This document shows, one piece after another, positions 2,042 through 33,194 of a stretch of DNA of 34,757 bases. Each line of letters opens with the position of its first letter. The first letter of the stretch is position 1. The DNA comes from a virus. The notes beneath the pieces were generated by a model, which saw only the letters and a list, made by a program, of their open reading frames with translations, had not been told where the DNA came from and did no database searches. The position numbers and the translations under genes are program-made. The DNA is taken from the IMG/VR virus record IMGVR_UViG_3300043570_000093, positions 1 through 34,757 of that record. One strand, given 5' to 3'.

Positions 2042-4291
2042 CTATCTAACTAATTGACTTGTTGTTCCATCGTTTTTGTACTTAGCAAAGTTAATAATTA
2101 AATTTGATTCTTTTTTCTCCGGCATATATAAGTGCTTTTGATTTGCCATTATACATAATCCCGAACTAATAGACGCATCAAATTTTGTTCTGTCGTTTAT
2201 ATCAAACCTCGCCCAATCCTCAAGTGTTCTTGTAAATGGCATTGTGCCCATCTCCTCAGGGTCTCTATATTTTGCTTCTAAATCTAATCCTACAAATTTC
2301 TCAATGTAAGACTCGATTGCAGAAGCGTGTGCTTGTTTTACATCTTCTGATGAGTTTGGAATACCTCCTAACTCACGCTCAGTCTTTGTTAACTTAGCCA
2401 TTTGCTTATCCGGTCTATTAACAGAGAAACCTCGGTATCCTCTATTTTTTATATGGTATAAAAGTCTTGGTTTGTTATTCTCCACTAAGATAGGCATTCC
2501 GTAGAATATGCAAGCCATTAACACTTCTTCAAAAAATATTTCTGCTGTTTGTGGACGAGCAATATATTCTAAAAAAAATTGATTAACAGGAGCGTCATCC
2601 ATATGAAACTTAGTCATACCGTGCAATGCACCATTAGAACCACGTCCACCAACTACGGCTGAGATGTCATAGGAGTCACAACCAAATGAACCAAGATGCT
2701 CGTTACCGGGATATTTAATTCCATTGCGTATGTGAATATTATTCTGCATATGCTTAGGCGGTGCCCAAGCAATATTAAATCTACCACGAGTATCAGGCGT
2801 CCATATTACCTGAGTATCTTTTATACCATCTTTCCACGAGAATAACCCACGAGTAAGGTATTGTCCCTTAATCATTGAGTCGTTATAGTCAATCTGTTGA
2901 TATAATTTGGTTAAATTAAATAAAGCCTGCTTGCTCTCATCTCTGAAAGCGTGAGACTCTGTGCGTGGGAACTGACGATAAAATTCGTTCAATGCATCAG
3001 CATCACTCTTTAACGAGTCTACCTCCGCTTCCCAATAATCAATGGCTCCATTTATAATCCAATTGTTATCCACACCCATTACAGCCTCAACAGGCTTGCG
3101 AAATACAGGATGACCATATCTATCAATGAATCCTTCCATATTCCACTCCATAGGTACAAATAGGGCATATAAGCCACTTTTAGTCTGTCCGTTGGCGTTA
3201 CGAACCTTTACATTTGAATCTTCGTAAATATCTTTGTAGTTCTGTCCCCCTTTTGATAATGCGTTTGAGGTTGAACCCATCATACACTTACCAATAATTT
3301 TACTACCTAACCTAAGACACGTTTTAGTTACACGCCAATTCTCTTTAATGTTTACAGGCTTAGTCCACTTGGCTGACTCATCGTGAGCCAAGAAGAGTAG
3401 CTTCTCTCCATCATAGGAGTTGTCTTCCGTATTCTTCCAATCTATTGATGTATCTAATCCGTCAATCTCATTGTCGTTGGCTTCGTACATATTCTTTTTA
3501 GTAATCTTAGATGCAGGAACCCTAAATGCCAACTCAGTCTTTGGCTTGTCCATACCATCCATTATTGGCTTAAAAAAGAAAGGAAGTCGACTATTAATGG
3601 GGACAACCTTATCTGTGAACATCTTTTTAGCATCGGCACCCGTCTTAGATAAGATACCTATACGTGCGTCACGTGCGAGCGTACCTATGTTAACGCACTC
3701 TGAAGATGACATAAATGAGAATCCCGAACGTCTAATCTTTAGGTATATCATACCAAATGACCTCGGGTCTGCACGGCAGGCTTCCCAAAATATCCAATAT
3801 ATTCTATTCGCTTCCCGAAAATCAGGATAGCCTATGTCAATACTTGACCACTGCAGGTACATATAATGAGAACCGGTTATGTAGGTTTTGACACCATTGT
3901 TCATAAACCAATATCCCTGTTCCCTGTAGTCAAATTCTTTTTCAATATAATCAACCCAACGGTCTTTAAATTCTTTTGGCTTTTCGTTCCATTGAAATAT
4001 GGATTGAATTTTAGCTAACTCACGGGGAAGGTCGTGACGCTCCCAATACTGTTCAGCTTTAGTGGAGTGTCTTTGAAGACACTTATCGGGTATAGCAGGA
4101 AGAGCAATAAATAATCCCTCTATCTCTACTACCTGCCCTATCTGTCCGGTCTTTGAGATAACAATAACATCGTACTGAGGATTATAACCATACAACCACG
4201 ACCTCACTCTATTTTTATTAGAGATGACGGAAGCCGGTATATGACTTTCAACTATACGGCATAAACTATTGCTTTGACCTTCTTTCTGCAA
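2042..4291 (-). CDS. terL: Terminase large subunit (packaging ATPase-nuclease)
   Basis: The 749-residue protein has the layout of a large terminase subunit. A P-loop-like segment KIRRSGFSFMSSS lies at residues 185-197, a Walker B strand LLFLAHDES at 298-306 ending in Asp-Glu, and a coupling motif MMGSTSNA at 337-344. A second, nuclease-like part has FGCDSYD at 536-542, whose aspartates could bind metal. The usual Walker A Lys in GK(S/T) is absent; an RRSGFSF variant is found instead, and I believe similar deviations occur in other phage terminases. The protein would translocate DNA into the prohead through the portal and cut concatemers. It overlaps the upstream 95-residue gene by 26 bases, which suggests coupled translation. 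A copy of the dispersed palindrome GTGTCTTTGAAGACAC lies in its coding sequence at 4067-4082. Confidence 0.88.
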   Translation of the reverse strand: MQKEGQSNSLCRIVESHIPASVISNKNRVRSWLYGYNPQYDVIVISKTGQIGQVVEIEGLFIALPAIPDKCLQRHSTKAEQYWERHDLPRELAKIQSIFQWNEKPKEFKDRWVDYIEKEFDYREQGYWFMNNGVKTYITGSHYMYLQWSSIDIGYPDFREANRIYWIFWEACRADPRSFGMIYLKIRRSGFSFMSSSECVNIGTLARDARIGILSKTGADAKKMFTDKVVPINSRLPFFFKPIMDGMDKPKTELAFRVPASKITKKNMYEANDNEIDGLDTSIDWKNTEDNSYDGEKLLFLAHDESAKWTKPVNIKENWRVTKTCLRLGSKIIGKCMMGSTSNALSKGGQNYKDIYEDSNVKVRNANGQTKSGLYALFVPMEWNMEGFIDRYGHPVFRKPVEAVMGVDNNWIINGAIDYWEAEVDSLKSDADALNEFYRQFPRTESHAFRDESKQALFNLTKLYQQIDYNDSMIKGQYLTRGLFSWKDGIKDTQVIWTPDTRGRFNIAWAPPKHMQNNIHIRNGIKYPGNEHLGSFGCDSYDISAVVGGRGSNGALHGMTKFHMDDAPVNQFFLEYIARPQTAEIFFEEVLMACIFYGMPILVENNKPRLLYHIKNRGYRGFSVNRPDKQMAKLTKTERELGGIPNSSEDVKQAHASAIESYIEKFVGLDLEAKYRDPEEMGTMPFTRTLEDWARFDINDRTKFDASISSGLCIMANQKHLYMPEKKESNLIINFAKYKNDGTTSQLVR

Positions 4292-22374: not shown

Positions 22375-23991
22375 TTATTGTTGTTGCTCGTATGTACGAG
22401 CCATTGTAATGATTGCATTAGTGCTTAAAATAGTTACCGCTACACTGACAGCATTTTGTAATGCTGACCTTGTAACTTTTAATGGGTCAATAACACCCAT
22501 CTCAATTAGGTCACCCATCTGACCGGTCTTAAGGTTGTACCCGTAACCAACCGGAGTGCTGTCCTTGTACACATCACTTGGTTTAAGACCTGCGTTAGCC
22601 AATATCTGTTGGAATGGAGACATCAATGCATTGCGAACAATAGCAACTGCTGCATCATACTCAGGACTTTGACTTGGTCCTCCAATCTCAGCACTCTCAT
22701 CAAGTAATGCCTTGCCCGCACCCGGTAGTATCCCTTCCTCTAAAGCAGACCTTACTGCACACACAGCGTCATCAACCCTGTCATACAACTCTTTCTGCTC
22801 AAGGTCAGTTTGACCACCAACAAATATTACACCTATGCCACCCGTAAGTGAAGCTATTCTCTCCAACAAAAAGTCTTTGTCACCTTTCTTGGTCGCTTCT
22901 TTATGTGCGTCCCATAACTGCTTAACCCTTTCGTCAACCATTTTCTCATCAGCTTTAGCTGTACTTCTAATAATAACAGTTTTGTCTTTGCCAACAATCA
23001 CCTTACTTGCGTGCCCTAAGTCACCATAGTTGATATGGCTTAAGTCATCACCCGTTTTCTCACTATAGTAAGTTGCACCTACACTAATCGCTATGTCTTG
23101 CATCAACTCGTGCTGCTTGTAGCCAAAGTTAGGCGGAGGCACAGCCACCACTTTCAAATTCCCCTTTACTGAGTTTGCTGCAAGCGTATTTACCACGTTA
23201 GTGTTGCACGGAGAAATGATGAGTAGTTTCTTTCCTTCTGAAATGATTGGTTTCAACACGTTCTCAATCTGAAGTATATTAGCTATCTCAATGTCACATA
23301 CCAAAACCATAGTGTCTTCAAAGACACACTCGTCTTTCTTTTGGTCGTTGATAAACATTGAACTCAAATACCCTCTGTCAAACTTCAAACCCTTAGTTGT
23401 CTCTGCATATGTCTCATTAGTCTGACTTCTCTCTACTGTTACAATACCCGTCTTACCCACATCCTTATAAACCTCTGCAATAATGCGTCCTATCTCTCTG
23501 TCATTGTTAGCTGATAATGCCGCCACGTCCAATAGCATTGCACTACTAACTTTCTTTGCCTTACGTCTTAACTTCTCCACCACCTTGTTGCTTATATCCA
23601 CCATATGTCTCAGCACCTCCGTTCTGTTCATATCATCTTTGATATGCTCAAGACCACCAAGTACTAATCCCTCTGTCAAAACAATAGCCGTTGTCGTGCC
23701 ATCACCTGCAGCGGTAGCTGTCTTGTCTGCCGCCTCTTTCATCATCTTAACCGCAAGGTTCTCAGATGGGTCAATCAAGTCAATTGACTTAGCAACTGTT
23801 ACACCATCCTTAGTAACTGTGATGCCGTGTGTGTGATGTGGACTCTCAATGAGCACCGTGTTACCACTTGGTCCAAGAGTTGACTTAACAGCCTTTGACA
23901 TCTTGATGACACCACTGATAAGTTTCTTTCTTCCTTCACTTCCGAACTGCAAATCCTTGGGTGAGTACCCAATTCCTGATGTTTCTACCAT
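22375..23991 (-). CDS. groEL: Chaperonin GroEL
   Basis: The 538-residue protein is a full group I chaperonin subunit. STLGPSGNTVLI at 37-48, VTKDGVTVAKSI at 59-70 and AGDGTTTAIVLTEG at 95-108 form the ATP site, with the catalytic Asp in RVDDAVCAVRSALEEG matching the RVDDA motif. It makes the folding cage with GroES. It differs from bacterial GroEL in the end: it stops at ARTYEQQQ with no Gly-Gly-Met tail. The apical part is diverged, as in other phage chaperonins. It is preceded by a TATATTTG promoter element (24040-24047) and one ATCAA unit before the ATG. A copy of the dispersed palindrome lies in its coding sequence at 23312-23327. Confidence 0.95.
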   Translation of the reverse strand: MVETSGIGYSPKDLQFGSEGRKKLISGVIKMSKAVKSTLGPSGNTVLIESPHHTHGITVTKDGVTVAKSIDLIDPSENLAVKMMKEAADKTATAAGDGTTTAIVLTEGLVLGGLEHIKDDMNRTEVLRHMVDISNKVVEKLRRKAKKVSSAMLLDVAALSANNDREIGRIIAEVYKDVGKTGIVTVERSQTNETYAETTKGLKFDRGYLSSMFINDQKKDECVFEDTMVLVCDIEIANILQIENVLKPIISEGKKLLIISPCNTNVVNTLAANSVKGNLKVVAVPPPNFGYKQHELMQDIAISVGATYYSEKTGDDLSHINYGDLGHASKVIVGKDKTVIIRSTAKADEKMVDERVKQLWDAHKEATKKGDKDFLLERIASLTGGIGVIFVGGQTDLEQKELYDRVDDAVCAVRSALEEGILPGAGKALLDESAEIGGPSQSPEYDAAVAIVRNALMSPFQQILANAGLKPSDVYKDSTPVGYGYNLKTGQMGDLIEMGVIDPLKVTRSALQNAVSVAVTILSTNAIITMARTYEQQQ

Positions 23992-25207: not shown

Positions 25208-25238
25208 TTTGGTGGAATAAAGTAATAAACTATATTTG
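25208..25238 (+). promoter_or_regulatory. Early promoter, TTTG-N19-TATATTTG
   Basis: TTTG at 25208-25211 and TATATTTG at 25231-25238 are 19 bases apart, an exact match to the Bacteroidota pattern. RNA should start near 25246, about 30 bases before the ATG at 25277. This is the clearest promoter in the window and would drive the rightward early operon. Confidence 0.8.
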
Positions 25239-25276: not shown

Positions 25277-25915
25277 ATGAGTCAATTACTATCAATCGAA
25301 ACGGCTTTCCTAAGCCTCCCACAAGTCAAGCAGGGCTTGAATTTGAGCGAAATTAGGAGCGTGCAAAGGACTATCACCAATGCCAAAAAGAAAAAGTTTG
25401 AGCAAACGCTTGCCTTGAGTAAGTTAGTTACTACGGCTGTAGATTGGTTTCAGTCGGAGGAAGGGCAAAGAGTTTGCACCGATGAGGGTATTGCTTGGAG
25501 CAATGAGGAGATTGGGCAAAAAGTTTTTGGATGGCAAAAAAGTTTTTTCTACAAAGTAGTGAAAGCCGGACGCCTACAGCCCGAGGTTATCGAGTCGTTC
25601 AATGTCAAGTGCAATGAGGTTGAGGCACAAGGTGAGGAACCAAATAGAAGCCTTGAGGGTTTATTAAAGTTTGCAAAGCAGGTGGAGTCAGGCACCAATG
25701 CAGGTGGACAAGGTGAGAACGATGAAAGCGGAGAAAGTGAAAGTGAGCCACAAGTTGAAACACGTATTGAAACCATTTTAACTTTCACGTACAAAAGCGA
25801 AGGCGGTAATGTTTCAGTAAGAATCGATGCAAATGGCTTAGTGAAAACCACAAATAGCGATGAGCAAATCAGGGAGGCAATCGCTGTATTGAATTTCAGT
25901 TTACAAAATAGATAA
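25277..25915 (+). CDS. Early protein with possible helix-turn-helix
   Basis: The 212-residue protein is the first gene after the early promoter. The N-terminal half is helical and basic. Residues about 72-106 (WSNEEIGQKVFGWQKSFFYK, then AGRLQPEVIESFN) look like a DNA-binding helix pair. Residues 135-160 are a low-complexity Gly/Glu/Ser linker (GGQGENDESGESESEPQ). The end is a beta-rich domain (TRIETILTFTYKSEGGNVSV). First-expressed phage genes of this kind often take over host or phage transcription; that is inferred. No family recognised. Confidence 0.7.
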   Translation: MSQLLSIETAFLSLPQVKQGLNLSEIRSVQRTITNAKKKKFEQTLALSKLVTTAVDWFQSEEGQRVCTDEGIAWSNEEIGQKVFGWQKSFFYKVVKAGRLQPEVIESFNVKCNEVEAQGEEPNRSLEGLLKFAKQVESGTNAGGQGENDESGESESEPQVETRIETILTFTYKSEGGNVSVRIDANGLVKTTNSDEQIREAIAVLNFSLQNR

Positions 25916-25934: not shown

Positions 25935-26813
25935 ATGAACGGAATCATTTATTCAACAACAGGAGAAAGTCGCAGGGGTCAAGTGGCAAGTTACCACTCA
26001 AAGCCTTCGCCATTGTTTCTAAACAAAAGCAAACACGCTGTAGACATTGCAGGGCTTAAGCCGGCTCAACAGCGTAGTGCAATCAAGTTTGAGAGCGGTG
26101 AGTATGCCTCTAAATTTACAATTGGGTTTGAGGTTGAGAAAAACCAATTGAGCCGTAATGCGGTGAGAGAGTATGAATTATTTTGTGGGTTTGAGCGTGA
26201 TGGGTCGTGCGGTTACGAAGCCGTTACCCACGTGCTCCCTTTGTTACCTGCAGGGGGGTGGCGTACAAAGGTTTACGATATGATGCACAAAGCCGAAAAG
26301 ATTATCGATGATAGGTTTAGCCCTTCTGATAGGAGGTGCGGAGGTCATATCACTATAGCGTGTGAGGGGATGAGTGGTGATGCCTTGAGGGATGCCATTC
26401 GTAAAAATTGCGGTATTATCCTTGCTCTATTCAAAAAGCGTGTTACTAACAGCTATTGCAGTTACAATAGCAGGATGCAAAATTCAACCGAGTCCACCAA
26501 TTGGCACCACAAGTACCAATTAGCCCTTGTAAAGGGTGGATGCCTTGAGTTTAGGGTTCCGTCTCGCTTTCAGTCAGTTAAGCAAATGATGAGGAGATAT
26601 GAACTAATGTACGAGATTGTGAACTACAGCATAGCAACGCCAAATGGCTCCCACGATGGATTGCTTAAGAAAATCAAGCCTATCATTGTCTCAATGTATA
26701 ACGGCAACGAGGATGACGCCAACGAGGTGTTGAGGTTATCAAAGTTATTCAGGGCGTACATTCTGAAAGGTGAGGTGCATCAAGATATTGCACCATACGT
26801 GAGAAACTATTAA
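25935..26813 (+). CDS. Putative amidoligase (COOH-NH2 ligase, GS-like fold)
   Basis: The 292-residue protein matches the amidoligase pattern of a glutamine-synthetase-like fold. It has GFEVEKN at 64-70 (metal-binding Glu66 and Glu68), ERDGSCGYEAVTHVLPL at 87-103, RCGGHITI at 134-141 with His138, and LEFRVPSRF at 204-212 with Glu205 and Arg207. Enzymes of this group use ATP to join a carboxyl and an amino group, in peptide tags or small molecules. Published surveys of the family report neighbourhoods with class II glutamine amidotransferases and cyclotransferases; here such a fusion protein is encoded 1.6 kb downstream. Hammerhead ribozyme 1 follows the stop by 32 bases. Substrate unknown. Confidence 0.72.
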   Translation: MNGIIYSTTGESRRGQVASYHSKPSPLFLNKSKHAVDIAGLKPAQQRSAIKFESGEYASKFTIGFEVEKNQLSRNAVREYELFCGFERDGSCGYEAVTHVLPLLPAGGWRTKVYDMMHKAEKIIDDRFSPSDRRCGGHITIACEGMSGDALRDAIRKNCGIILALFKKRVTNSYCSYNSRMQNSTESTNWHHKYQLALVKGGCLEFRVPSRFQSVKQMMRRYELMYEIVNYSIATPNGSHDGLLKKIKPIIVSMYNGNEDDANEVLRLSKLFRAYILKGEVHQDIAPYVRNY

Positions 26814-26821
26814 TCACGAGA

Positions 26822-26896
26822 GGGAGTGTCTTCAAAGACACTTCCGCTGTCGGGGGATGATTATCCTCCCTGATGAGTTCTAAAGAACGAAACAGC
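26822..26896 (+). ncRNA. Hammerhead ribozyme 1 with upstream hairpin
   Basis: An 11-bp hairpin (26822-26845, containing GTGTCTTCAAAGACAC) abuts a complete hammerhead ribozyme (26846-26896). Stem III is GCUGU with ACAGC; the cleavage triplet is GUC at 26849-26851; stem I is a 7-bp hairpin (26852-26869); the core CUGAUGA is at 26870-26876; stem II is GUUC-UAAA-GAAC; the core GAAA is at 26889-26892. All conserved bases are present. Stem III is open, so this is a type III form. Cleavage would fall after C26851, between the amidoligase gene and the 42-residue gene. Confidence 0.93.
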
Positions 26897-26916
26897 AACC
26901 ACAAAAATGTAATCAA

Positions 26917-27045
26917 ATGGAATCAGTAATCTACAACGGGATAACATTTCCCAACGAGCAAGCCCTTCACGAGTGGCGTCTTATTTTTGAGTTCGACTAC
27001 TTTATGGAGCAAGCGGAACAAAATTTATTAATCAATCAAATCTAA
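26917..27045 (+). CDS. Small protein, 42 residues
   Basis: The frame gives MESVIYNGITFPNEQALHEW, RLIFEFDYFMEQAEQNLLIN and QI. It starts 20 bases after ribozyme 1 and its ATG follows ATCAA. It is acidic, with aromatic residues, and has no membrane helix. No family recognised. The 34-residue gene follows 4 bases later. Confidence 0.65.
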   Translation: MESVIYNGITFPNEQALHEWRLIFEFDYFMEQAEQNLLINQI

Positions 27046-27049
27046 TCAA

Positions 27050-27154
27050 ATGGGACAAACAATTACAATCCTAGAGGCTGTAGCTATTAGCGTGATAACC
27101 ATAGTGTTATACGCCTTACTTAAATCTTTAATTGAACACTTTAAATCTAATTAA
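27050..27154 (+). CDS. Single-helix membrane peptide, 34 residues
   Basis: The frame gives MGQTITILEAVAISVITIVL then YALLKSLIEHFKSN: one hydrophobic helix and a basic tail. It starts 4 bases after the 42-residue gene, with ATCAA before its ATG, and ends 2 bases before the next ATG. Small early membrane peptides of phages often disturb or guard the host membrane; no function is shown here. Confidence 0.6.
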   Translation: MGQTITILEAVAISVITIVLYALLKSLIEHFKSN

Positions 27155-27156
27155 CT

Positions 27157-27726
27157 ATGAGACAGATAACACGAGACATTGTGAACGCTTTTCAGAATAG
27201 CCGTTCACTACGAATTGACAACAGCAGGACGGATGGTGAGAGTTTATGGCTATTCAACAATAAGATAGCAGAAATTAGGAGGGATGGCTTATGGATAACT
27301 AATGCAGGATGGAAGAGTAGAACAACAAAGGAAAGATTGAACGGGCTTTCAGGTGTTCATATTCAGAGTGTCAGGGGCAATTGGTTCCTCAATGGCAGGG
27401 CTTGGGATGGTGGATGGGTGCAGATGGATGCGTGGAATGGTGGTGCTGAGTCAGTCCCTGAGGAGAATGTGCAGGAGCCTGAGTTCGATGTGACAAGTGA
27501 ATGGATGCCGGAGGGTTACAGCAAGCCGGTGTATGCGGTGTATCATACGTTATTGGAAGCAGGGCTTAGGGCGGTTGAGATATTGCTAAACGATATTAAT
27601 ATACCAACAAGAAGGGCGGAGTCAGATACTGATGGTGTGTACCGACCTAACTATTTTATAGTTGTACGTCCTGAGGATGTAGACAAGGCGGTTGAAAAGT
27701 TATCTGAGTATTATTGTCTTTCATAG
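27157..27726 (+). CDS. Early hypothetical protein, 189 residues
   Basis: The N-terminal half (about 1-90) is a pattern I recall in several phages: ..SLRIDNSRTDGESLWLFNNK, ..WITNAGWKSRTTKERLNGL, SGVHI..VRGNWFLNGRAWDG. The C-terminal half (about 110-189) is a separate mixed domain ending in FIVVRPEDVDKAVEKLSEYY. A function for the N-terminal module is not known to me. Ribozyme 2 with its hairpin lies 20 bases after the stop. Confidence 0.7.
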   Translation: MRQITRDIVNAFQNSRSLRIDNSRTDGESLWLFNNKIAEIRRDGLWITNAGWKSRTTKERLNGLSGVHIQSVRGNWFLNGRAWDGGWVQMDAWNGGAESVPEENVQEPEFDVTSEWMPEGYSKPVYAVYHTLLEAGLRAVEILLNDINIPTRRAESDTDGVYRPNYFIVVRPEDVDKAVEKLSEYYCLS

Positions 27727-27745
27727 GTTCGGTAAATATACGTAT

Positions 27746-27820
27746 GGCGGTGTCTTTAAAGACACTGCCTCCGTCCCTAAGTGTATGCTTAGGCTGATGA
27801 GTCCCAAAGGACGAAACGGA
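27746..27820 (+). ncRNA. Hammerhead ribozyme 2 with upstream hairpin
   Basis: The hairpin at 27746-27769 (11 bp, containing GTGTCTTTAAAGACAC) abuts the ribozyme at 27770-27820. Stem III is UCCGU with ACGGA; the cleavage triplet GUC is at 27773-27775; stem I pairs CCUAAG with CUUAGG; CUGAUGA is at 27794-27800; stem II is GUCC-CAAA-GGAC; GAAA is at 27813-27816. Loop and stem sequences differ from ribozyme 1 while pairing is kept, so there is covariation within this single genome. Confidence 0.93.
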
Positions 27821-27863
27821 ATTTTAAACCGAAGGTTTTAAACCCTTCACTAAATCAAATCAA

Positions 27864-28043
27864 ATGGACACACAAGAACGGATGGAGTATTTGCAAGACG
27901 TAATCGATAGATTATTGTACTTGAAAGGTGAGAAATTAACCGAGTACCAACACTACTTGGACGTATTGAAAGACGTTTATCCTATTGACGTAACAATGGA
28001 GAATGGTATCAGAGTTTATCACACTAAAACCGAAAGCAAATGA
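27864..28043 (+). CDS. Small acidic helical protein, 59 residues
   Basis: The frame gives MDTQERMEYLQDVIDRLLYL, KGEKLTEYQHYLDVLKDVYP and IDVTMENGIRVYHTKTESK. It starts after two ATCAA repeats (27852-27863) and 44 bases after ribozyme 2. Its TGA overlaps the ATG of the zinc-binding gene (ATGA), so translation is coupled. No family recognised. Confidence 0.7.
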   Translation: MDTQERMEYLQDVIDRLLYLKGEKLTEYQHYLDVLKDVYPIDVTMENGIRVYHTKTESK

Positions 28044-28330
28044 CAAGACCAAATGATGTGTGGGAGTGTTCAAGTTGTTCACGCCTACAAGGACGCCACG
28101 ATATGTGGTTCGAAGACAATCTATGTGAAAGATGCCACGAGAATCTTCCAAGGTGCAGAGAGTGTGGCACTAAGGACACAAAGCAAATAGTTGAGAGTAG
28201 ATGTGATGCCTACGGGTATGGAACAGGGGATTGGTGTGACAGGTGTTATGACAGCGACAAGTATCCATATCGTAAAGATAGATACTTCGACCCATCGTAT
28301 GCGGGGGAAAGATTGGAAGATGATTATTAA
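28040..28330 (+). CDS. Small zinc-binding protein with CxxC pairs
   Basis: The 96-residue protein has four CxxC pairs: Cys10/13, Cys29/32, Cys39/42 and Cys66/69, with a further Cys55. They would bind at least two zinc ions in ribbon folds. The end is acidic (YAGERLEDDY). It may bind RNA, DNA or protein. Related CxxC pairs occur at the C-terminus of the 372-residue protein encoded next. No family is assigned. Confidence 0.72.
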   Translation: MTRPNDVWECSSCSRLQGRHDMWFEDNLCERCHENLPRCRECGTKDTKQIVESRCDAYGYGTGDWCDRCYDSDKYPYRKDRYFDPSYAGERLEDDY

Positions 28331-28332
28331 AA

Positions 28333-28368
28333 TAAATTTGGCAATGTCGAATTTATGTCGTATCTTCG
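28333..28368 (+). promoter_or_regulatory. Internal promoter region with TGTCG repeats
   Basis: The 105-base gap before the amidotransferase gene has TAAATTTG at 28333-28340, and TTTG (28337-28340) spaced 20 bases from TATCTTCG (28361-28368). Two ATGTCG elements (28344, 28354) lie within the spacer, the same element as in the 24.2 and 33.7 kb clusters. Either box could act as the -7 element. A bound repressor at ATGTCG would block it. Confidence 0.45.
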
Positions 28369-28390
28369 TTCAATATCAGTTCAATAACAA

Positions 28391-28418
28391 GGGTTCTGTG
28401 TCTTCAAGGACACTGCCC
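28391..28418 (+). repeat. GTGTCTTCAAGGACAC hairpin in 5' leader
   Basis: A 6-bp GTGTCT/GGACAC stem extended by GGG/CCC lies 18 bases before the start of the 372-residue gene. It is a variant of the palindrome that precedes ribozymes 1 and 2, but here no ribozyme core follows. Confidence 0.65.
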
Positions 28419-28435
28419 ACAAACAAATTTAGCGT

Positions 28436-29554
28436 ATGTGTGTAATCATTATCAAGCAGAAGGGCAAGAGAATCCCTCGAGAGGTTGCAAAGACTTCATC
28501 AGAAATCAATCCCCACGGATTGGGAATTATTTGGTTGGACACGTTCGAGGTGAGTTATCATAAGTCTACTGCGTATAGCTTATTGGACACTGAGCGACCC
28601 TTTATTGCTCATTTCAGGTACGCCACCATTGGTGCTATCAATAGAGAGAATACGCATCCATTTAGATGCGGTAGCAACAAACAAGAGTGGCTGATGATGA
28701 ACGGAACGATTAAGAATCTTGGTGACTTCAAGAAGAGTGACTCAAGAGTATTGGCAGAGAACTTGGGCGAGATACCACGCCATAAGTGGAAGCAAGAGTT
28801 GGAAGGGTATGAGTGTAGGTTCGTATCGGTTAACACGCACAGCAGAACGTATCAGATTTATAACAAAGAGTTATGGGTTCAAAGGGATGGCGTATGGTAC
28901 AGCAAGGACAATGTCCTTGAGGACAATTTAATTGCTGTTTACGGGACTTTAAAGAAAGGGTATAGTAATTACCACAGCTACCTGAGTACGTCCAAATTTG
29001 TGGCTAATGGTGAGACCAAGGACAAGTATCCTTTAGTTGTCAGTGGACTGCCTTACCTGATTGAGGAGAGTGGAGTGGGTCACAATGTGGAGGTGGACGT
29101 GTTCAAGGTGAGCAATTCAAAACTTAAACAGCTTGACATATTGGAGAGTCATCCGACTTGGTACAAGAGAAAGCAGATAGACATCAAGACTAAAGGTGGT
29201 GTGCTTAAGTGTTGGGTGTACTTCAATATCAGGGAGACATCAGGAGGCAAGGTGCATCACAAGAGTTATTCGCAGAAGGCAAAGCCTTATAGTTTTTGGG
29301 AGAAGGAGGACGTGAGGGAGAGTAAAAAGCAAGAGAGCATATTCAGTAACTACGGGTACGAGGAGCCGAAGAGTGTGTTCTTAACAAGTATATTGGATGA
29401 GGAGTGTGATGATTGTGAGTTTGACATAGAGAATGAGAAGCCTATATGTGTCAATTGCTTTCACGATTTAGAGCACGATATGTTCGCAAATTATCATTGT
29501 AGTGGTTGCGATGAGTGGTTCACTGAGTCTGAGGTTTTACGATTCCGACCTTAG
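28436..29554 (+). CDS. Class II glutamine amidotransferase-cyclotransferase-zinc fusion
   Basis: Three parts are seen in 372 residues. Residues 1-160 are an Ntn-type class II glutamine amidotransferase: nucleophile Cys2 (MCVIII), GLGIIWLD at 28-35, FIAHFRYAT at 56-64, ENTHPF at 71-76, MMNGTIKN at 87-94. Residues about 165-265 are a gamma-glutamylcyclotransferase/AIG2-like fold: VYGTLKKG at 168-175, LPYLIEE, candidate Glu219 (HNVEVDVFKV), LDILESHP at 233-240. Residues 324-358 hold CxxC pairs 324/327, 338/341 and 355/358, a zinc cluster. The first domain would release ammonia from glutamine or act as a hydrolase, the second cleave gamma-glutamyl amines. With the amidoligase upstream, it suggests a pathway that makes and trims amide-linked products. 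An upstream promoter and ribozyme 3 after the stop bracket the gene. Confidence 0.8.
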   Translation: MCVIIIKQKGKRIPREVAKTSSEINPHGLGIIWLDTFEVSYHKSTAYSLLDTERPFIAHFRYATIGAINRENTHPFRCGSNKQEWLMMNGTIKNLGDFKKSDSRVLAENLGEIPRHKWKQELEGYECRFVSVNTHSRTYQIYNKELWVQRDGVWYSKDNVLEDNLIAVYGTLKKGYSNYHSYLSTSKFVANGETKDKYPLVVSGLPYLIEESGVGHNVEVDVFKVSNSKLKQLDILESHPTWYKRKQIDIKTKGGVLKCWVYFNIRETSGGKVHHKSYSQKAKPYSFWEKEDVRESKKQESIFSNYGYEEPKSVFLTSILDEECDDCEFDIENEKPICVNCFHDLEHDMFANYHCSGCDEWFTESEVLRFRP

Positions 29555-29564
29555 ACTTGGCTCA

Positions 29565-29639
29565 GGGTGGTGCTTATGGCACTGCCCTCCGTATCGGGAT
29601 GAGTTGTCCCGACTGATGATTCTGAAAAGATGAAACGGA
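29565..29639 (+). ncRNA. Hammerhead ribozyme 3 with variant upstream hairpin
   Basis: The hairpin at 29565-29587 (9 bp, different sequence) abuts the ribozyme at 29588-29639. Stem III is UCCGU with ACGGA; the cleavage triplet is GUA at 29591-29593; stem I is UCGGGA with UCCCGA; CUGAUGA is at 29613-29619; stem II is UCU-GAAA-AGA with a U-U mismatch at its base; GAAA is at 29632-29635. The cleavage site is A rather than C, and stem II is short, so activity may be lower than in copies 1 and 2. Confidence 0.88.
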
Positions 29640-29677
29640 AAATTTCTTAAATTTAACAAACATTAAAACCACTAAAA

Positions 29678-33064: not shown

Positions 33065-33080
33065 GTGTCCTTAAAGACAC
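33065..33080 (+). repeat. GTGTCCTTAAAGACAC hairpin before the tRNA-like element
   Basis: Another copy of the palindrome, with one mismatch inside the stem, ends 5 bases before the acceptor stem of the tRNA-like element. It could form the end of the recombination mRNA or help 5' processing of the tRNA. Confidence 0.65.
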
Positions 33081-33085
33081 AAGGG

Positions 33086-33194
33086 AGTCAGGTGGCGGAG
33101 TGGTAGACGCAACCGTTAACGGATAAGTTCGTGCAGACGTGCACCTACGGTGTTATATCCCAAACAAACGCAGGTTCGATTCCTGTCCTGACTA
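33086..33194 (+). tRNA. tRNA-Leu-like element with abnormal anticodon region
   Basis: The acceptor stem is a perfect 7 bp (AGTCAGG with CCTGACT), the D-arm is GCG-GAGTGGTAGA-CGC as in leucine tRNAs, and the T-arm is GCAGG-TTCGATT-CCTGT. The 59 bases between D- and T-arms do not give a normal 5-bp, 7-base anticodon arm. ACCGT (33112-33116) can pair with ACGGT (33146-33150) only across a 29-base loop, which itself carries a 5-bp hairpin GTGCA-GACG-TGCAC. An inserted sequence, an intron-like piece or a decayed tRNA are possible. No CCA is encoded at the end. Confidence 0.6.

Follow-up and report, generated by a model that had tools for sequence, protein, structure and literature searches.

Hammerhead ribozymes with an abutting 5' hairpin in a phage early operon: a candidate module for making mRNA 3' ends

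Introduction

Why would a phage place hammerhead ribozymes, each directly preceded by a strong hairpin, at three junctions between the genes of a single early operon? The question is raised by a linear fragment of 34,757 nt from an uncultivated phage (IMG/VR virus record IMGVR_UViG_3300043570_000093), the whole of which is referred to below as the window. Here we compare the hairpin–hammerhead units of the window with those of related and unrelated sequences, and we argue that, on balance, such a unit probably is a hairpin-capped, ribozyme-made mRNA 3' end.

Clustered hammerheads as such have precedents. Perreault et al. (2011, PMC3088659) described clustered prophage hammerheads that flank genes or short gene blocks, for which a role in processing of long transcripts was proposed; their tandem arrays cleaved in vitro, and one triple array also did so in E. 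coli. What prokaryotic hammerheads do biologically is counted among the unanswered questions in a 2017 review (PMC6155905). On the side of mRNA stability, it has been shown in E. coli that operon segments are protected when a stable hairpin lacking a U-tract lies shortly upstream of their processed 3' ends (PMC5927463).

Results

Three complete hammerheads directly abut a hairpin

An earlier note on this DNA, made from its letters alone, had placed three complete hammerheads at 26846, 27770 and 29588. Core, exact-motif search and folds all agree with it. By direct reading, the NUH site, stem I, CUGAUGA, stem II, GAAA and stem III are present at all three sites (Table 1), and each has the catalytic core C3 U4 G5 A6 N7 G8 A9, G12 A13 A14, A15.1-U16.1 and H17. 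The exact motif CTGATGA-N12-GAAAC matches three times in the window, always on the + strand, with all other matches carrying two mismatches. The minimum-energy fold at each site is exactly hairpin plus hammerhead, with z values of -4.5, -5.5 and -3.2 for units 1, 2 and 3, and equally stable folds were obtained with 0, 0 and 2 of 200 shuffles, respectively. The folds, together with covariation of all three stems, show a core surrounded by three helices, of which stem III opens to the flanks, i.e. a type III architecture. Pair 10.1-11.1 is G-C in units 1 and 2 and U.U in unit 3, the latter being a variant reported to be active (PMC3088659). As in clustered phage hammerheads, all three point in the same direction and flank genes of one operon; self-cleavage is predicted at the sites given in Table 1.

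The Rfam covariance models, to which the earlier note had pointed, match unit 1 (26844-26898; E 7.9e-8, 45.9 bits) and unit 3 (29586-29641; E 6.5e-5, 35.6 bits) to RF00008 in cmscan, and unit 2 matches only weakly, to RF00163 (24.7 bits, E 0.014). Since all three scores are below the gathering scores, standard annotation reports none of these hammerheads.

The second element of the unit is the hairpin. In agreement with the earlier note, it lies directly against stem III, with zero bases between the two at all three sites, and the tail between hairpin and predicted cut is 6 nt long in each case (GCUGUC, UCCGUC and UCCGUA in units 1, 2 and 3); tails of 5-7 nt are found in most of 205 hairpin-bearing units. 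No U-tract follows the hairpin at any of the three window sites, and on this ground we rejected the window hairpins as intrinsic terminators. A stable hairpin without a U-tract and a few nucleotides from the end, here a predicted one, is also the layout of protective 3' hairpins of the malE type, which in addition stabilise the RNA upstream of them.

Table 1. Features of the early operon and of the tRNA-like element in the window
Feature	Position	Strand	Details
Bacteroidota-type promoter-like site	25208..25238	+	TTTG-N19-TATATTTG; ahead of the early operon; regular-expression match only
First early gene	25277..25915	+	Putative helix-turn-helix protein of 212 aa, conserved across 79 fetched loci
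Gene upstream of unit 1	25935..26813	+	292 aa; 'amidoligase' of the earlier note
Hairpin, unit 1	26822..26845	+	GGGAGUGUCU-UCAA-AGACACUUCC; begins 8 nt past the stop codon at 26813
Hammerhead 1, type III	26846..26896	+	Stem III GCUG/CAGC; site GUC; predicted cut after 26851; stem I 26852-26869; core 26870-26876; stem II 26877-26888; GAAA 26889-26892
Gene upstream of unit 2	27157..27726	+	189 aa; Kyanoviridae Gp96-like N-terminus
Hairpin, unit 2	27746..27769	+	GGCGGUGUCU-UUAA-AGACACUGCC
Hammerhead 2, type III	27770..27820	+	Stem III UCCG/CGGA; site GUC; predicted cut after 27775; stem I 27776-27793; core 27794-27800
Palindrome without hammerhead	28398..28413	+	Follows the promoter-like site 28337-28368; the start codon of the amidotransferase gene lies 23 nt downstream
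Gene upstream of unit 3	28436..29554	+	372 aa; glutamine-amidotransferase-like (GATase) + GGACT
Hairpin, unit 3	29565..29587	+	GGGUGGUGCUUAUGGCACUGCCC; without GTGTC palindrome
Hammerhead 3, type III	29588..29639	+	Stem III UCCG/CGGA; site GUA; predicted cut after 29593; stem I 29594-29612; core 29613-29619; U.U at 10.1-11.1
Palindrome/hairpin before tRNA-like element	33065..33080	+	5 nt upstream of the element
tRNA-like element	33086..33194	+	RF00005, 40.7 bits; not called by ARAGORN; acceptor and T arms intact, middle abnormal

The hairpin–hammerhead order is conserved and the stems covary

Only two phage records, MW202828 and OQ984151, match the window well, and both are uncultivated or unplaced. 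The comparison covers 80 IMG/VR loci gathered via the amidotransferase/GGACT protein (28436-29554), in which open reading frames were called with a simple finder; counts over these relatives include kin sequences and are not numbers of independent events. A descriptor scan returned 169 hammerhead matches on the + strand, 0 on the - strand and 4 in a reversed control sequence, with very few of the 169 being weak or overlapping coding sequence. A strong hairpin with gap 0 precedes 106 of 132 type III hammerheads (controls, about 1-2%). The mean hairpin energy at these type III hammerheads is -13.9 kcal/mol, as compared to -2.0 in random windows and -1.4 downstream. Taken together, the reversed-sequence and shuffle controls rule out a chance origin of hammerheads and hairpins. 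The hairpin mostly starts 5-13 nt past a stop codon; a hairpin of unrelated sequence often stands in its place (e.g. in loci L027, L020, L019 and L050), and where these phages have type I hammerheads, stem III is formed by the clade hairpin.

Covariation was assessed on 118 unique motifs. Core, U16.1/H17 and stem lengths served to choose them, with pairing not demanded. Pairing at positions 1-6 of stem I, 2-4 of stem II and 1-2 of stem III is found in 117-118 of the 118, while at most of the tested stem positions shuffled partners pair in means of 48-92, and RNAalifold reports double changes in 12 of 15 pairs. The core columns are invariant or almost so over 76 aligned units; the core is kept in close relatives, a check by which the reading in the earlier note could have been refuted. 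Hammerheads with proper stems are confined to the early-operon cluster in the 20 records examined. We also note that the identity of H17 follows that of pair 10.1-11.1 in the 118 unique hammerheads (L004-L083 and the window): C17 occurs with G-C in 62 of 63 cases, A17 goes with U.U (28) or G-C (16), and U17 mostly with A.A (3 of 4).

A hairpin recurs at junctions where the putative 3'-end maker is exchanged

At homologous junctions the hammerhead is not always there. One follows the homologue of the 25935 gene at about 54 of 67 distinct junctions, and the amidotransferase gene at 32 of 76. After the amidotransferase gene, L044, L047, L051 and L052 carry the clade hairpin, extended and then followed by a U-tract; judged by its sequence, this is an intrinsic terminator built on the palindrome that forms the hairpin apex (see below). 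Other relatives without the hammerhead have a hairpin followed by a tRNA-like minihelix consisting of acceptor and T arm (L042:7620-7710, L022:6429-6553, L023:11105-11229 and L004:7719-7818). These minihelices are very small and lie just past stop codon and hairpin, where other relatives have a hammerhead or a bare hairpin.

A related arrangement occurs in the window clade, where a hairpin lies 3-5 nt ahead of a tRNA-like element whose arms are kept and whose middle is variable. Such elements are seen at 33086-33194 in the window and in L005, L007, L008, L010, L015, L016, L018, L020 and L080. Perhaps the element does not decode but acts as a signal for RNase P, and RNase P cleavage at the 33086 element would leave hairpin plus short tail on the upstream mRNA. 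Every arrangement (type III hammerhead, type I hammerhead with the hairpin as its stem III, tRNA-like element or terminator) would leave the upstream RNA ending in a hairpin and a tail of about 0-7 nt. That they all converge on such an end is the chief argument for a function in making 3' ends and not in folding only.

A folding role is the strongest competing explanation: the hairpin would stack coaxially on the short (3-5 bp) stem III and speed folding or cleavage, with no role after the cut. This explanation is served by the gap of exactly zero in most cases and by the type I hammerheads in which hairpin and stem III are one, and mean stem III length is 4.05 bp with hairpin versus 4.52 bp without, a difference that is not significant (p 0.11) and makes for a weak dependence of hairpin presence on stem III length. 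On the other hand, the hairpin persists without any hammerhead to assist (before U-tracts, 1-5 nt before tRNA-like elements, or alone), and hammerheads with a 3-bp stem III and no hairpin are common. We consider it unlikely that coaxial stacking is all that the hairpin is for.

The hairpin apex is a palindrome dispersed across the genome

The apex of the hairpin is the 16-bp palindrome GTGTC-TTYRAA-GACAC (GTGTCTTCAAAGACAC), or GTGTC-N6-GACAC. In the window, copies at 26826 and 27750 belong to hammerhead hairpins, and copies at 4067, 23312, 25060, 28398 and 33065 are without hammerhead. Of 35 records searched, 31 carry 7-16 copies per genome (reversed sequence gives none in 34 records and a single copy in the other), i.e. 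many near-identical sites across the genome, as for dispersed operators. In all 8 genomes examined the clade palindrome, with 7-15 copies, is by far the most over-represented palindrome, and its sequence is clade-specific: GTGTC, GTCCG, GTCTG or GAGGG.

Orientation and outer stem depend on where a copy lies. Within genes the two orientations are equally frequent (50:49) and outer-stem pairing amounts to 0.66 bp; intergenic copies without hammerhead are biased (93:12); and at hammerhead sites the orientation is 60:0 (TTCAAA 60, TTTGAA 0) with an outer stem of 4.2 bp. The terminase-gene copy (window 4067-4082, - strand), which encodes CLQRH, is invariant over its 16 bp in nine GTGTC-phage terminase genes, while the flanking codons drift, and phages of other clades have different residues there and lack the palindrome. 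The GroEL-like chaperonin gene (22375-23991, - strand) also contains a palindrome copy in its coding sequence, one that is not kept in all relatives. Given its genome-wide repetition, which extends into the terminase gene, the palindrome probably has a second role at the level of DNA and probably also serves a DNA-binding factor. The product of 25277-25915 is a candidate only: its presumed recognition helix differs between palindrome clades, but it has no family match, and its confident AlphaFold model (pLDDT 85) found no PDB match better than E 0.5, so that naming this putative regulator by fold was given up.

This opens a second alternative, in which the apex palindrome is bound, as DNA or as RNA hairpin, by a phage regulator, perhaps the 25277-25915 product, and marks controlled junctions. 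Mycobacteriophage L5 stoperators and KorB operators would be the parallels. The genome-wide, clade-specific over-representation, the in-gene copies with neither orientation bias nor stem extension, the invariant terminase copies absent from other clades and the variable presumed recognition helix all speak for such a site. What it accounts for poorly is the hammerhead junctions themselves, where loop orientation is fixed (60 versus 0), where the outer stem pairs as RNA, including G-U pairs, and where the palindrome is missing from many of the hairpins, window unit 3 among them; the candidate regulator, furthermore, lacks a known fold match. As an explanation of the hairpin at hammerheads, regulator binding therefore seems to us improbable, more so than coaxial stacking.

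The unit recurs in unrelated viral and bacterial contigs

Other viral contigs were found by a scan for one common hammerhead stem II, and the figures given here are among the matches listed. The unrelated viral set comprises contigs without relatives of six window proteins. Here a hairpin precedes 44% of 59 distinct type III hammerheads at gap 0 and 53% at gap <=2; random windows give 1.7% and 2.9%, and downstream sequence gives 0. The amidotransferase was present in one of 34 checked records, most of them with adjacent hairpin, and this one, L164's contig, was counted as a member of the phage group and not as unrelated. In bacterial contigs, many of them Patescibacteria metagenome-assembled genomes (MAGs), the corresponding values are 24% (gap 0) and 40% (gap <=2) of 68 type III hammerheads. 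Many type III hammerheads, often with hairpin adjacent, were seen in contigs L239-L299 from Patescibacteria (candidate phyla radiation, CPR) MAGs. Hairpins outside the phage group are unrelated in sequence, e.g. GGGGGCTTCGGCCCCC and GGGAGGAGCAATCCTCCC.

Genes around the units

The earlier note's names for the flanking genes fared differently: the amidotransferase label of 28436-29554 is supported by GATase and GGACT, while amidoligase finds no Pfam or PHROG support for 25935-26813. The distance from the hammerhead-less hairpin to the amidotransferase start is kept in relatives at about 22-24 nt. The phage host probably belongs to the Bacteroidota, judged only by the promoter-like sites.

Discussion

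In this study we have compared a repeated phage RNA element in which a strong hairpin directly adjoins a type III hammerhead. Sequence comparison establishes its ribozyme architecture and covariation, the zero gap, the location behind stop codons and the interchange with other makers of 3' ends. Conserved core, covarying stems, fixed gap and exchange with terminators and tRNA-like elements lend support to the part of the earlier note that saw in it a repeated unit setting mRNA ends.

We propose that each type III hammerhead cuts the nascent early-operon RNA a few nucleotides past the hairpin while transcription proceeds. The upstream message would then end in a stable hairpin with only 5-7 nt behind it, closed by a 2',3'-cyclic phosphate, and a tail that short would be a poor starting point for 3'-to-5' exonucleases. 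The downstream message would continue to be transcribed, beginning with a 5'-OH beside stem I. Being a terminator-like 3' end without a transcription stop, the unit would allow segments of one transcript to have separate lifetimes. Formation of 5'-OH and cyclic-phosphate ends is established hammerhead biochemistry. Circularisation or re-ligation of the inter-hammerhead segments, which this end chemistry and the shared stem III strands of units 2 and 3 (UCCG/CGGA) would suit, is very improbable and was rejected as a product of phage enzymes: stem III of unit 1 differs, no RtcB or RNA_ligase family gene was matched in 32 related records (many of them maybe incomplete), and Perreault et al. looked for spliced or circular products without finding any (PMC3088659).

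Several points weigh against reading the unit as a hairpin-capped 3' end. Cleavage in infected cells, exonuclease resistance and any effect on gene dosage, such as the separate dosage of gene blocks proposed in the earlier note, are what we infer from the comparison. The relatives are not independent, so that our counts overstate the number of events. Some hammerhead-less junctions have the hairpin alone, or nothing. In bacterial contigs many type III hammerheads lack an adjacent hairpin, and about half lack any, so that the cap is far from being a constant companion. Assistance to stem III folding could instead be the role of the hairpin, part of which is shared with a genome-wide palindrome that apparently has a DNA-level role.

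A hairpin-capped 3' end made by cleavage would have counterparts in other systems. In MALAT1/mascRNA, RNase P cuts ahead of a tRNA-like element to give a structured, stable 3' end. The phage group likewise combines a stable structure with tRNA-like elements, RNase P cleavage being predicted here, although MALAT1/mascRNA is eukaryotic and uses a triple helix where the phages have a hairpin. As in the malE-type arrangement (Dar and Sorek 2018, PMC5927463), a stable hairpin stands before a processed 3' end and lifetimes would differ along the transcript, but malE-type ends are cut by host endonucleases such as RNase E, whereas the predicted cutter here is a ribozyme encoded beside the hairpin. 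The engineered RiboJ insulator also fuses a hammerhead with a hairpin to set mRNA ends; its hairpin lies downstream and shields the following gene, while the phage hairpin is upstream and natural (PMC8794103). The theta ribozymes of gut phages, present in phages of Bacteroidota and Bacillota, are small and self-cleaving too and have been proposed to process RNA, yet they belong to an HDV-like (hepatitis delta virus-like) class and are proposed to act on tRNA 3' trailers, in contrast to the mRNA segments considered here (PMC10879173). The prophages of Perreault et al. also have several same-direction hammerheads flanking phage genes; what sets the present case apart is the hairpin at stem III and its exchange with terminators and tRNA-like elements, neither of which we found described there (PMC3088659).

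The earlier note knew of no serial arrangement of this kind. Clustered phage hammerheads were, in fact, reported in 2011 (PMC3088659), so the clusters are already known. We found no description in an open-access library of the abutting 5' hairpin, its spread or its exchange with terminators and tRNA-like elements, and it is this module that we regard as the new part. The Rfam gathering thresholds miss the ribozymes of the window as well as those of five scanned relatives, so that annotation of the module is probably incomplete.

Beyond this phage group, hairpin plus hammerhead may constitute a general phage and bacterial 3'-end module, with many prokaryotic type III hammerheads existing for the sake of hairpin-capped mRNA 3' ends inside operons, the cutter being swapped (hammerhead, RNase P minihelix or terminator) and the cap kept; on this broader proposition we are evenly divided. 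The module may also hint at a compact part, taken from nature, with which to set lifetimes inside operons. Finally, a fixed-gap hairpin that is widely spread and occurs in exchange with RNase P substrates and terminators provides a concrete, testable hypothesis for why phages keep hammerheads.

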